NCBI GenBank assembly: GCA_027317185.1 | Contig: DAHVFB010000003.1 | Location: forward strand, 1 to 64,000 | Reading direction: 5' to 3' | From: Deltaproteobacteria bacterium | GTDB lineage: Bacteria > Desulfobacterota > Binatia > Binatales > Binataceae | DNA length: 64,000 bases | Shown: in pieces, positions 3,087-57,704 of the stretch | How the letters are laid out: each line of letters starts with the position of its first letter | How positions within the stretch are numbered: position 1 is the first letter of the stretch | Notes under the pieces: generated by a model | What the model was told of the DNA's origin: nothing | Seen by the model: only the letters and a program-made list of their open reading frames with translations | Databases searched by the model: none | Position numbers and translations under genes: made by a program

Positions 3087-3203
3087 GCTCCTGACCTCCC
3101 ACGGCACGATGACAATGACATTTCTCGCGGATAAACACCCGATCCGCGCCGGCCATCGTCCCCAGTGACCCGCCGGTCGAGCGGCATCGAACCGGGCTGG
3201 AAT

Positions 3204-3289
<86 letters not shown>

Positions 3290-3622
3290 ACTGGCGATCT
3301 CCACGGCAAATCCGTTCCGCGACCGCGAGCGAGTGTAACCAAATCTCCTCAGATTTGCGATTTTCGCGATGAATTCAGACGCGGTCAAAGCCGCTGGATG
3401 CGATAGGCGGATCGATCTGCGATGTGGCCTCGCGATGCAAACAGACCCCCTTGGCGGCAGGCTGCCCCCGCAGAAGAACCGTTAATGACCTGCCGTCATA
3501 TCGTCGCTAATTGGATTTTTCGCCGCATAATTTAACTGCAGCGATGCTAATCAGGAAGATTCACGCAAGAAAGTTCACGGTCACGATTTGACCTTGTCCG
3601 TACCGGACATTAAGGTGCGTGA

Positions 3623-3702
3623 AGCCCTGCCGCGCGGCCTACCCAGAGCGCATCGGGGAGGGGGAGTGCCCAAAGCTCCTGGTTTCCTCTCGCGGCAGGG
3701 CT
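3623..3702. ncRNA. Hairpin-forming repeat copy 1 (possible structured RNA or small mobile repeat)
   Basis: Perfect 12-bp inverted ends AGCCCTGCCGCG...CGCGGCAGGGCT enclosing CAGAGCGCATCGGGGAGGGGG; related copy about 230 bp downstream. Confidence 0.5.
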
Positions 3703-3930
3703 AGTCCAATACTTAATTCAAAATCTTTAATTTCAGTGACGTTAATTCCGAGAGTCTTTGTGATTTCCCTTTTGAAAAGAAAAGCCTCGCCTATCCATGT
3801 GGCTGAGCATTTCCTCGTCGTGTCGCCATCAAACTATATAAAAGCCGTTAGTGGCTAATTAAAAATGACTTTCCACCATTGGCAATCAGTTTTTAAGAAC
3901 AGAATGTGGCTTCTTCCCGGCTTCTAAGGC

Positions 3931-4006
3931 GCCCTGCCGGGCGGCTTGCACAGAGCGCATCGGGGAGGGGGATGCCCTCGCACTTGTGGATCCGACTCGG
4001 CAGGGC
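3931..4006. ncRNA. Hairpin-forming repeat copy 2 (possible structured RNA or small mobile repeat)
   Basis: GCCCTGCCG...CGGCAGGGC inverted ends enclosing CAGAGCGCATCGGGGAGGGGG; same architecture as copy 1. Confidence 0.5.
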
Positions 4007-4228
4007 CCGCCCAAGTCTCATATGTCCAATTATTTTTGCTGCAACCATCTATAAACGTCGATTGATAGGAGAGTGACGCAAGCAGCCTGCCAATCTGCTA
4101 CAACGATGCCCCGCTCCGGCAACTTGGCACGAAATCGATTCTTCGCCTCCGGTAAACTGCTTCCTTGATGATGCGCTGATGCAGGGATTGTAAATCTTAC
4201 TTCAGAACTTCAGATTTTTACGCTTCTT

Positions 4229-6601
4229 TCAAGCGACCGCGCGATGCCATTCAGGTGACTTTTCGAGCATCGCGAAAACCCTTCCGGGCGTGAGCGGGAA
4301 TTCGTTGATCGTGACCTCAAATGGCGCCAGCGCGTTCTCGACCGCCGCGACGATTGCCGCCGGCGCCGGAATCGTGCCGCCCTCCCCGGCTCCTTTGACG
4401 CCCAACGGATTGATTGGGGTGGGCGTATGCAGGTGTACGGTTTCGACCGCGGGCACCGCCGATGCGGTCGGCAGCGTGTAGTCGGCGAAATTCGCGGTGA
4501 GCGGCTGACCGGCGTCGTCATAGGCCATCAGCTCGAACAGTGCATTGCCGATTCCATGCGCCACCCCGCCTTGAATCTGCCCCTCGACGATCATCGGATT
4601 AATCACATTGCCGCAATCGTGAGCCACGATATAGCGCACGACGCGCACCGCCCCGGTGTAGATATCCACCTCGACCTCGGCCACATGCGCGCCATTGCAA
4701 AAGGTTGACGCACTGGGCACGAAATTAACGCTTGCCTCGAGGCCGGGGCTGATGCCGTGCGGCATCCATCCGCCCAACCGCCCGCCAGACAATGAGTTGG
4801 TGAACAACTCCTGCAGCGAAATACCCGCCTTCGGATCGCCCTTGAGATGAACCCGGCCGTTGGACAATTCGAGATCATCCTCGAGCGCCTCGAGCTCGTT
4901 CGCCGCGAGCTTAATCAGTTTGTTGCGAATCTCGATGGAGGCCATATGCACGGCCGATCCGGCATTGGCGCCCGACCGGCTCGAAATTGTCCCGACTCCC
5001 ATCGTGATCGCGCCGGTATCTCCGCAGGTAACCGAAACATCGTCGAGCTTCACGCCGAGCTGATCGGCGCAGACCTGGGCCAGAGTGGTCTGATGACCCT
5101 GGCCTTGTGGGCATGAGCCGGTATAGACCCGAATCTTGCCGCTTGGGAGCACGCGAACGATGGCCGACTCGAAGGGTCCGAGTCCGGTGCCTTCAACAAA
5201 ATTGGCGAGACCGATTCCGAGGTAACGCCCGTCCGCACGCGCGGCACGCTGGCGCTGCGCAAAGCCGGCATAGTCCGCCAGTTCGATCGCCTTGGCCTGG
5301 CATTGCGGATAATCGCCGCTGTCGTAAGTAAGCGTCTCGCCATGACGATAAGGAAGTCCCAGCGAATACGGCATCTGTTCCGGTTGAATGAAATTGCGGC
5401 GGCGCAGTTCGGCCGGATCGAGGCCCATCCCGGCGGCCGCTCGATCGAGCATCCGCTCCATCGCGAAAACGCCCTGTATCCGCCCGGCGCCGCGCACCAC
5501 GGTGTTGGGGACGGTGTTGGAAAAAGCCACCGTCACCTGCAGATTCAGATTCGGAATGATGTAGGGACCATGCATCGTGGCGGCGGCCGTATGCGGCGCG
5601 ATAATACCGATCGGCAGATATGCGCCGTTGTCGTGGACCATCGACCCGCGCACACCCAGAATCCTGCCGTTGGCGTCGAGCGCGATTTCCGTATCCCAGA
5701 ACTGGTCCCCCTCACGCGTGGTGGCCAGAAAGTGCTCGCGGCGATCTTCGATCCAGCGCACCGGCGCACCCAGCATCAAGGCCGCGATCGCGATCACGCC
5801 CTCTTCGGCATAAAACGGCGCCTTGGGTCCGAAACCGCCGCCGACGTCGGGGGCGACAACCCGAATCGTTTCGAGGCTGCGATCGAGCATCTGCGCCAGC
5901 ACGCGCTGATTGTTATGCGGCGCCTGACACGATGACCATACGGTGAGCAGGCCATCGACCGGATTCACCATCGCCGCCACCGCCCGCCCTTCCATCGAAC
6001 TGGCATTGCCGCGGTGGGTTCGCAGCGAAACGCTAAAGACGTGCGGCGCACTTCGGAAAGCGGCATCGGTGTCACCTTTAACCAGCGACAGGGTGCAGGC
6101 GATATTGGACGAGAGGGTTTGACGCACGCGCGGCGCATCGCTTTTCAGGCCGCTGCGCGCATCGCCAACCGGGACAGCTTCCTCGTATTCCACTTCGATC
6201 AGTTCGGCGGCGTCCTCGGCGATATAGCGGTTCTCGGCGATCACGACCGCGACTGCCTGGCCGACGTAGCAAACCTCGTCATGCGCCAGTAGTGATTGCG
6301 TTGCCTCCTGCTCCGACGGATAGGCGGTATTCACCACCCGCGGAATCACCGATCCCATCGGAATCGAAGTGCGGGCGCTCGGCGGAAGATCGTCGAAGAC
6401 GATCACCGCCCTGACCCCGGCAAGCGCTCGCGCGTGATGGGTATCGATCGAGCGAATAAAGGCATGCGCATAGGGGCTGCGCAGAAATGCGGCATGCAGT
6501 GTACCCGGCAGCCGCAGATCGCCGACGTAAGTCCCGCGGCCGGTCAGCAGCTTCAAATCTTCAGTCCGCTTTACCCGCGCGCCCAGTTCTTTCGCACCCA
6601 T
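4229..6601 (-). CDS. Xanthine dehydrogenase / aldehyde oxidase family molybdopterin-binding (CoxL-like) large subunit
   Basis: RTEDLKLLTGRGTYVGDL, PDVGGGFGPK, VVRGAGR, GQGHQTTLAQVCADQLG, GVKGAGEGGTIPAPAAIVAAVENAL. Confidence 0.92.
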   Translation of the reverse strand: MGAKELGARVKRTEDLKLLTGRGTYVGDLRLPGTLHAAFLRSPYAHAFIRSIDTHHARALAGVRAVIVFDDLPPSARTSIPMGSVIPRVVNTAYPSEQEATQSLLAHDEVCYVGQAVAVVIAENRYIAEDAAELIEVEYEEAVPVGDARSGLKSDAPRVRQTLSSNIACTLSLVKGDTDAAFRSAPHVFSVSLRTHRGNASSMEGRAVAAMVNPVDGLLTVWSSCQAPHNNQRVLAQMLDRSLETIRVVAPDVGGGFGPKAPFYAEEGVIAIAALMLGAPVRWIEDRREHFLATTREGDQFWDTEIALDANGRILGVRGSMVHDNGAYLPIGIIAPHTAAATMHGPYIIPNLNLQVTVAFSNTVPNTVVRGAGRIQGVFAMERMLDRAAAGMGLDPAELRRRNFIQPEQMPYSLGLPYRHGETLTYDSGDYPQCQAKAIELADYAGFAQRQRAARADGRYLGIGLANFVEGTGLGPFESAIVRVLPSGKIRVYTGSCPQGQGHQTTLAQVCADQLGVKLDDVSVTCGDTGAITMGVGTISSRSGANAGSAVHMASIEIRNKLIKLAANELEALEDDLELSNGRVHLKGDPKAGISLQELFTNSLSGGRLGGWMPHGISPGLEASVNFVPSASTFCNGAHVAEVEVDIYTGAVRVVRYIVAHDCGNVINPMIVEGQIQGGVAHGIGNALFELMAYDDAGQPLTANFADYTLPTASAVPAVETVHLHTPTPINPLGVKGAGEGGTIPAPAAIVAAVENALAPFEVTINEFPLTPGRVFAMLEKSPEWHRAVA

Positions 6602-10942: not shown

Positions 10943-10970
10943 GCCGGCATAACTCCCCCTCCCCGGATCT

Positions 10971-52199: not shown

Positions 52200-53483
52200 T
52201 TATTCGAACACCGAATCGAATTCGAGGCCGAGGAAGTTCAGCACCACTTCCGCGTACAGCCGCAGACCCCAATAAAATCCGTCGATTGGCAGCCGTTCGT
52301 CATTGCCATGATAAAGCGATCCGAACGGCGTCATCGGGCCAAGTTTGACCGGCGAAAAGCCGTAACAGACCGCTCCCAGCCGCGCGAAAAACTTGCTATC
52401 GGTGGCGCCCGGCAACATCCAGGGTATCGCCGCCGCGCCGGGGTCGGCGGCCGCGATGTTCTCGGCGATCAGCCGGTATAGAGGCGTATCGGTGCTCGAC
52501 TCAGCCGGCGGCGCGCTCTTGATCACTTCGAGGGCCGGCTCGGGACCGACGATCGTGCGCAACTCGGCAATGAAGCTGGCGACATCCTCCCCCGGCAGCG
52601 TGCGCCCATCAATTACCACCGAAGCCTCGCCCGGTATTACATTATCCTTATAACCGGCGCTGACGATGGTCGGGGTCGCCGTGTTCGATAGCATCGGACG
52701 GAACAATGGCGGCGCGGTTTCGCGGCTGAGACCGAGGGCGGCGAACGTCTGGCTGACCGGCCGGGTGATACGAATTCGCATTTGCGCATTGGCGATTCGG
52801 GTGATCAATTCCGCCAGACGGGTTATCGCCGTGACCGGACGGGGAATCGATCCATGGCCCGGCGCGGCGGATACCGTCAAGCGCACCGTGACAAAACCTT
52901 TTTCGGCCACCTGGATCGGATAGAACCGGCGGCCGCCCATATACATAGTAAAGCCGCCCACTTCGTTGAGCACGAAGCCGGCCCGCACCAAATCGGGATG
53001 GCGTTCGACCAGGAACTGCGCGCCGAAGCGGGATCCTGATTCTTCGTCCGCGGTCGCCGCTACAATCAAGTCGCGATTGGGGATTATCCCGGCCCGCACC
53101 AGCGCCACCGCGATCGCAAGGTCCATCGCGCACTTCGATTTCATGTCGATCGCGCCGCGGCCCCACACGTATCCCTCGGCTATCTCCGCGCCAAAGGGAT
53201 CGCGGGTCCAGTGTTGCGGCTCCGCCGGAACCACGTCGGTATGCGACGCCAGCATCAGGGGGGCCTCGCTCGACCGGCTGCCGCGAATTCGTGCGATTAA
53301 ATTGGTCCGATCCGGCGCGGCCTCCAGACTCACGGTCTCGATGCCGTTGGCGGCGTAAACGCCGGCCAGGTACTCGGCGGCAATCCGCTCATTGCCCGGC
53401 GGACTGGTGGTATCGAGGCGAACCAGGTCACGAAACCAGGACAGCGTCTGACGCTCGCAAGCGTCCCATGGGGTACGCATCAA
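52200..53483 (-). CDS. M20 family peptidase (ArgE/DapE-like)
   Basis: LMLASHTDVVPAEPQHWTRDPFGAEIAEGYVWGRGAIDMKSKCAMDLAIA, ATADEESGSRFGAQFL. Confidence 0.92.
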   Translation of the reverse strand: MMRTPWDACERQTLSWFRDLVRLDTTSPPGNERIAAEYLAGVYAANGIETVSLEAAPDRTNLIARIRGSRSSEAPLMLASHTDVVPAEPQHWTRDPFGAEIAEGYVWGRGAIDMKSKCAMDLAIAVALVRAGIIPNRDLIVAATADEESGSRFGAQFLVERHPDLVRAGFVLNEVGGFTMYMGGRRFYPIQVAEKGFVTVRLTVSAAPGHGSIPRPVTAITRLAELITRIANAQMRIRITRPVSQTFAALGLSRETAPPLFRPMLSNTATPTIVSAGYKDNVIPGEASVVIDGRTLPGEDVASFIAELRTIVGPEPALEVIKSAPPAESSTDTPLYRLIAENIAAADPGAAAIPWMLPGATDSKFFARLGAVCYGFSPVKLGPMTPFGSLYHGNDERLPIDGFYWGLRLYAEVVLNFLGLEFDSVFE

Positions 53484-56402: not shown

Positions 56403-57704
56403 ATGGAACCGATCAGAATCGTTCACTATCTCAATCAGTTCTTCGGTCAACTCGGCGGCGAGGAGTTGGCCGGGATCAAACCTCAAATCAAATCCGAAGC
56501 GATCGGGCCCGGCCGCGTTTTGCAAGCGCGGCTCGGCGCGAGCTTCGAGGTGGTGGCCACCGCGATTTGCGGCGACAACACCTTTGCCGATAATCCAGAA
56601 GCCGCTGCCGAAGACCTTACCGCACTGATTTCCGAATTTCGTCCGCAAATCTTAATCGCCGGGCCGGCGTTCAATTCAGGCCGTTACGGACAAGCCTGCG
56701 GCCAGCTTTGCGCTTCAATCCAGGAGAAGCTCGCGATCCCGGCGATCACCGGGATGTACCAGGAGAATCCTGCCGTCGATCAGTTCCGCAACCGGGTCTT
56801 GATTGTGCGAACCGGCCCCACCGCCCGCACGATGGGCGAGGCGATAGACCAGATCGTGTCGCTGGTCAAACGGATCGCGGCCGGCGATCCGCTCGATCGT
56901 CCGGCGGAGCTCGGATGCTTCCCGCATGGAATGAAACGTCCGGTTGTGCGCGAACAGATCGCCGCGCGGCGCGCGATCGATATGCTGCTCAGCAAGCTCA
57001 CCGGTCAGCCTTTCACCACCGAAATGAGCGTGCCGGTCTTCGATCGCGTCGAGCCAACCAGGCTCAAGCTTCCATTGTCCGAGGCCACCGTCGCGCTGGT
57101 CACCGACGGCGGTCTGGTAGCCAAAGGCAATCCAGAGCGGATGCCTAATGGCTATACCGATCGCATCACCGCTATCCCGATTCATGGACTCGACCGATTC
57201 ACGACCGATATCGTCGAGGCTCACCACGGTGGCTACGATACGCAGTTCGTCAATCAGGATCTCAATCGGCTGACGCCATTGGACGCCGCCCGCGAACTTG
57301 AGCGCAACGGTGTGATCGGCAAGCTGCACGAGACGGTTTACGCCACCGCCGGACTCGGCATGTCGATCTCAAACGCAAAAAAAGTTGGACGGGAAATTGG
57401 ACGGCGACTGCTGGATCAAGGTGTTCAGGCGGTCATCCTCACCTCGACGTGAGGAACCAGCACGCGCTGCGGAGCGGCGCTGGCAAAGGAAATCGAGCGG
57501 ATGGGAATCGCGACTGCGCAAATCTGCTCGATGAAGCAGGTAGCCGCGATGGTCGGTTCGCCGCGTATCGTGACCGGCCGCAGCGTGCTGCATCCAACCG
57601 GAGATCCGGCGCTCGCTCCGGAAGCGGAGCAGATGCTCAGGCGCGGGATCGTTGCCGATGCGATCCGGGCGCTGGCCGCCGACGGCATCCCACATGCGGC
57701 TTGA
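56403..57704 (+). CDS. grdB: Selenoprotein B of glycine/sarcosine/betaine reductase-like complex; in-frame UGA at 57450-57452 read as selenocysteine
   Basis: ORF 56403..57452 and the downstream in-frame ORF (57501..57704 track entry) join across TGA: ...QAVILTST-U-GTSTRCGAALAKEIERMGIATAQICSMKQVAAMVGSPRIVTGRSVLHPTGDPALAPEAEQMLRRGIVADAI...; matches the GrdB Sec context; 433 aa is GrdB-like length. Confidence 0.9.
57457..57483 (+). promoter_or_regulatory. Candidate bSECIS hairpin immediately 3' of the grdB UGA
   Basis: CCAGC-ACG-CGCT-GCGG-AGCG-GC-GCTGG; apical loop about 17 nt after the UGA. Confidence 0.5.

Follow-up and report, generated by a model that had tools for sequence, protein, structure and literature searches.

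A four-copy family of intergenic hairpins with a G-rich core in a Binataceae genome, tentatively read as a dispersed repeat

Among the described systems closest to the sequences analysed here, the REP super-families GTAG and CGTC carry their tetranucleotide at one end of a palindrome of 20-40 bp (PMC3733652), MITE-like small mobile sequences combine terminal inverted repeats and a more variable interior with a lack of coding capacity and a presence at several intergenic sites (PMC2229807), and the alpha-r14/cuckoo RNAs have several hairpins per short transcript, each with an identical CCUCCUCCC loop (PMC3927594, PMC10746234). We analysed a 64,000-nucleotide stretch of a Binataceae draft genome (hereafter the window), in which a sequence-only reading had pointed to two copies of an unrecognised hairpin element. 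The hairpins belong to what looks like a previously uncatalogued family of four copies of ~80 bases, ordinary in kind and with an unusually well-preserved G-rich centre.

The family resembles REPs and REPINs in that its copies are short, able to form hairpins, intergenic, dispersed and patchy between close relatives. However, they exceed the 20-40 bp of a REP two- to fourfold in length, they number four compared to the high copy number of REPs, and they end in AGCCC/GGGCT and variants, with neither GTAG nor CGTC at an end. GTAG REPs are also associated with an IS200/IS605-like RAYT, whereas a search for the Y1/RAYT transposase (PF01797; positive in 5 of 14 genomes as a control) gave no match in the 93% complete genome studied here. 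Judged from sequence, the family is not REP as defined by the GTAG/CGTC tags. It shares with MITE-like sequences the more variable interior, the lack of coding capacity and the location at several intergenic sites, and its terminal inverted repeats may correspond to theirs. It differs in that no target-site duplication accompanies the copies, no parent insertion sequence was returned by BLAST against the own genome, one copy has a different stem and the family has an invariant internal core. The likeness to alpha-r14/cuckoo RNAs lies in a conserved pyrimidine-rich motif (CCCCCUCCCC on the minus strand), variable stems and more than one hairpin per locus. The defining CCUCCUCCC is absent here, however, and the hairpins differ further in lying 307 nt apart, in their long 12-bp closing stem and in having neither terminator nor Rfam match.

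The features of the window, followed by the two copies found on other contigs (C178 and C249), were as follows; R1 is a covariance model built from three copies, with the C249 copy, whose core the aligner set one base out of register, left out.

3203..3290, minus strand: tRNA-Leu (anticodon taa), left neighbour of the gap
3291..4228: intergenic gap with both copies, 938 bp, GC 51.6% (39% between the copies)
3623..3702, plus strand: hairpin copy 1, 80 nt, closed by a perfect 12-bp stem, 99.4 bits with R1
3623..3634, plus strand: stem of copy 1, 5' arm, AGCCCTGCCGCG, with the same sequence in the C178 copy
3644..3671, plus strand: core of copy 1, CAGAGCGCATCGGGGAGGGGGAGTGCCC, containing GGGGAGGGGG (3655-3664) and then GCCC
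3691..3702, plus strand: stem of copy 1, 3' arm, CGCGGCAGGGCT
3930..4007, plus strand: hairpin copy 2, model length 78 nt, 82.4 bits with R1
3931-3939 / 3998-4006: paired ends of copy 2, 9 bp
3951..3977, plus strand: core of copy 2, CAGAGCGCATCGGGGAGGGGGATGCCC
4229..6601, minus strand: molybdenum-hydroxylase large-subunit-like gene, right neighbour of the gap, 790 aa, named by a reading of its sequence
Contig C178, 4952-5028, plus strand: C178 copy, 12-nt arms the same as those of copy 1
Contig C249, ~52305-52390, minus strand: C249 copy, stem related but different

Both hairpins in the window are placed antisense, past the 3' end of the molybdenum-hydroxylase-like gene. Re-reading the DNA reproduced their coordinates and sequences as first described, and the surroundings had rightly been called AT-richer, given the 60.2% GC of the window compared to 51.6% in the gap and 39% between the copies. 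The arms of copy 1, reported as perfect, are complementary at 12 of 12 positions (100%), and nowhere else do the 64 kb of the window hold an inverted repeat of 12 nt or more within a span of 150 nt or less; an inverted repeat as long was present in 12 of 1000 first-order Markov sequences of gap composition. The near-identical core proved to include an exact 22-nt word common to copies 1 and 2, the longest exact direct repeat of the gap, compared to a maximum of 14 nt in 1000 Markov sequences of the same composition, and the 21-nt core had exactly two matches in the window with none expected. The paired ends of copy 2 can be lengthened by one G-U pair, at the position of a C-G pair in copy 1, a change that was noted earlier and is present in the sequence. 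Copies 1, 2 and C249 have TAAGG 1-7 nt before the stem and YCCAA a few nt after it (3604-3622, 3703-3709, 3925-3929 and 4008-4014 in the window), and the repeat unit may thus be slightly longer than the hairpin. A third GGGGAGGGGG lies at 10955-10964 on the minus strand, just past the 3' end of a small helix-turn-helix-like gene; it was rejected as a copy of the element, as GCCC and stem are absent.

The genome is a fragmented draft (249 contigs, 4.1 Mb, 93% complete, ~5% estimated contamination). A genome-wide search, one of the checks proposed with the first description, was carried out with BLAST and R1 and added two dispersed copies to make four in all, both of them diverged and intergenic. 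The four copies (~77-87 nt) occupy three loci, namely C183 twice, C178 and C249, and all lie between genes. By names read from translations, the C178 copy lies between divergently transcribed genes for a sensor kinase and an outer-membrane efflux component, and the C249 copy between an exonuclease III-like gene and a convergent histidine-phosphatase-like gene. BLAST of copy 1 and C249 against the own genome returned only the four copies plus short chance matches. The neighbouring genes differ among loci, and the lack of a consistent neighbour fits dispersal better than a cis-regulatory RNA.

All four copies read GGGGAGGGGG-N0-2-YGCCC, with GGGGAGGGGG and GCCC invariant in an alignment made by hand, while both loop strands outside the core vary. 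The core was conserved above the rest of the loop in six of six copy pairs (P = 0.011 to 0.00011), a conservation that is partly ascertained as the C178 and C249 copies were found via their resemblance to copy 1. Between copy 1 and C178, 24 of 24 arm columns were identical compared to 17 of 37 other loop columns (P = 3e-6), which indicates that the ends were kept rather than the whole unit, as in small inverted-repeat elements. The terminal repeats comprise 12 of 12 bp in copy 1 and C178 and 9 bp in copy 2, and are different in C249. With one A bulged, the C249 stem has G-C for C-G at pair 3 and U-G for C-G at pair 8; such two-sided changes at two stem positions, in four sequences in all, are suggestive of covariation among copies too few for a test.

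Taken together, these observations are best explained, tentatively and at a little under an even chance, by a dispersed family of intergenic hairpin repeats with few copies and a distribution restricted to this lineage, most likely of non-autonomous element origin. The main rival, a multi-copy family of small structured RNAs, is possible but not likely. Read on the plus strand, such an RNA would expose the G-rich core GGGGAGGGGG, a strong Shine-Dalgarno-like or GGA motif; on the minus strand, CCCCCUCCCC could pair with ribosome-binding sites by analogy with the anti-Shine-Dalgarno loops of alpha-r14/cuckoo RNAs. An invariant core in four of four copies, with variable stems and other loop strands, is the fixed-core pattern described for SmelA075/NfeR1 hairpins (PMC3927594, PMC10746234). 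Copies 1, 2 and C178 also folded more stably than shuffled sequence (z of -2.0 to -2.9, holding on either strand for copies 1 and 2), although the C249 copy was not convincing (z of -1.3), and the consensus fold, compared to column shuffles, had a z of about -4, to which the conserved closing stem contributed most. Against an RNA, no consistent promoter and no U-run terminator was found at any of the four copies, a scan of the gap gave no more promoters or terminators than shuffled sequence, and copies 1 and 2, 307 nt apart, do not form one compact transcript. Trans-acting RNAs are usually kept in close relatives, and the element is absent from the 40 other family genomes examined, the one same-genus relative among them. 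A new structured small RNA family of this single lineage, presenting an unchanging G-rich loop (C-rich and pairing with ribosome-binding sites if read from the opposite strand) on freely varying stems in several genomic copies, is a doubtful proposition. A hairpin recognised through its fold and an RNA whose loop is functional would both be equally compatible with a constant core on stems that vary.

The same core raised the question of translation, as all four copies have the SD-like GGAGG followed 3-8 nt on, a plausible spacing for a start codon, by GTG or ATG (copy 1 GTG, 12 codons; copy 2 ATG; C178 ATG, 12 codons; C249 GTG). It is nevertheless highly improbable that the element carries a tiny leader or toxin-like peptide: the copies are homologous, so that their start codons are not independent evidence, the peptides differ in length and frame and have little in common, and the longer ORFs have neither a Pfam match nor a plasmid tblastn match. 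The short frames after GGAGG in the window span 3658-3703 and 3965-4079 on the plus strand and share no peptide. The one ORF overlapping copy 1 could be assigned to no gene family.

Another reading is a duplex DNA site, in which a chromosome-organising or regulatory protein would bind the palindrome and its G-rich centre. Such a site would account for dispersed, intergenic copies with an asymmetric core of conserved sequence, and the position of the C178 copy between a divergent sensor kinase and efflux operon would suit it. We consider this unlikely, since a 12-bp stem with a 56-nt separation is an unusual operator geometry, four sites next to unrelated genes do not point to a regulon, and the C249 stem differs in sequence.

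The motif GGGGAGGGGGN0-3GCCC occurred four times in the own genome, each time inside an element, and twice in the 40 other genomes of the family, both times without stems; the single same-genus relative had no match (the order-level sample consists of the same 41 genomes as the family-level one). R1 at E <= 0.005 had no match in the 395 other genomes of the phylum (396 sampled, with strict filters set for the search), and its matches at E of 0.02-1 in family genomes (L084-L092, L094) lack the exact core and were set aside as chance. The Infernal/Rfam check proposed with the first description returned no family at either threshold: at the gathering threshold only the tRNA was found in the window, and a relaxed search of the gap gave Corio-PBP as its best hit with 16.3 bits compared to a cut-off of 63.5. 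Phages and plasmids gave short matches only, with E above 0.1. Among viral contigs (IMG/VR), the two-arm and extended-core patterns had no match, the core-plus-arm pattern had three matches from which the element's stem is absent, and the core pattern had two, one inside a portal-like gene and one of 13.8 bits. With no Rfam fit and nothing convincing in phages, plasmids or IMG/VR, the description of the element as unrecognised stands.

Other genomes of the class held ~40 matches to the core, and R1 found no convincing relative among the 27 such loci that were fetched. At two of the class loci (L115, L116), a GGGGAGGGGG-RCTGCCCC hairpin adjoins a repeated GTTTTTCCTGGTCAGAATTTTTCAAACTGA that resembles an insertion-sequence end, and TCCTGGT is found after the copy 1 core as well, which would fit hairpins left over from the terminal inverted repeats of some larger insertion sequence. 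This origin is improbable, however. R1 gives the two loci no score and their remaining sequence differs, and they were rejected as relatives and regarded as a separate repeat; within the BLAST-matched stretches of the own genome, AGCCCTGCCGCG with an inverted partner occurs only in the elements, bar one loose match at window position 56507; and ~40 chance core matches in the class make one resemblance unremarkable. As a separate observation, GTTTTTCCTGGTCAGAATTTTTCAAACTGAGACACTACC is repeated in two genomes from a different family of this class, on the minus strand near 4902 and 2504 of L141 (G434 C1) and near 692 and 829 of L142 (G430 C140), with one occurrence upstream of a TonB-receptor-like gene; it resembles the end of an insertion sequence or an operator common to these loci.

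The corresponding locus was compared in Proteobacteria bacterium Centralia_MAG_294 (L021), where the hydroxylase is 78% identical and is likewise adjacent to tRNA-Leu. The gap of ~900 bp there holds a lipoprotein-like gene (~230 codons, L021:8371-9360) and no element. As this gene is missing from the window, the comparison shows the hydroxylase-tRNA-Leu gap to be a variable spot, and L021 does not demonstrate a clean insertion. Empty-site comparisons in the genome G001 were also rejected, as synteny is lost downstream at the exoIII locus and the C178 kinase has no match there above 51% identity, giving no clean empty site.

Four copies lie between genes and share a stem and a core, and no exact core with a stem occurs in the relatives examined. 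Scattering over unrelated sites between genes, lack of copies in these relatives and preservation of the ends favour a hairpin repeat copied in trans. Such a family is probably non-autonomous: an enzyme supplied in trans would have copied a small element from one intergenic site to another, and may have recognised the folded hairpin, single-stranded or as a cruciform, with stem and core as the parts recognised. The copies would have diverged after copying, and the enzyme would since have been lost or be absent. A transcribed copy would fold into a hairpin and could putatively influence RNA stability nearby. Against the repeat reading, none of the four copies is flanked by an adjoining direct repeat as a target-site duplication would be, the PF01797 search of the genome gave no Y1/RAYT transposase, a clean empty site was not obtained, and with only four copies, no two of them near-identical, there is no sign of recent movement. 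The largely different stem of C249 would also present other ends to a transposase that reads the end sequence. Of the two possibilities raised by the sequence-only reading, tandem structured RNAs and a non-autonomous mobile repeat, both survive, and the dispersed C178 and C249 copies favour a repeat over a purely local tandem RNA.

Beyond that first description, the C178 and C249 copies and the four-copy core motif are new. If the family encodes small RNAs, it would represent a multi-copy regulator from beyond the groups in which anti-Shine-Dalgarno loop RNAs were studied, with a clear core motif that is easily tested. If it is a dispersed hairpin repeat, it would be one more lineage-specific family of a well-known kind, and a marker of the clade.
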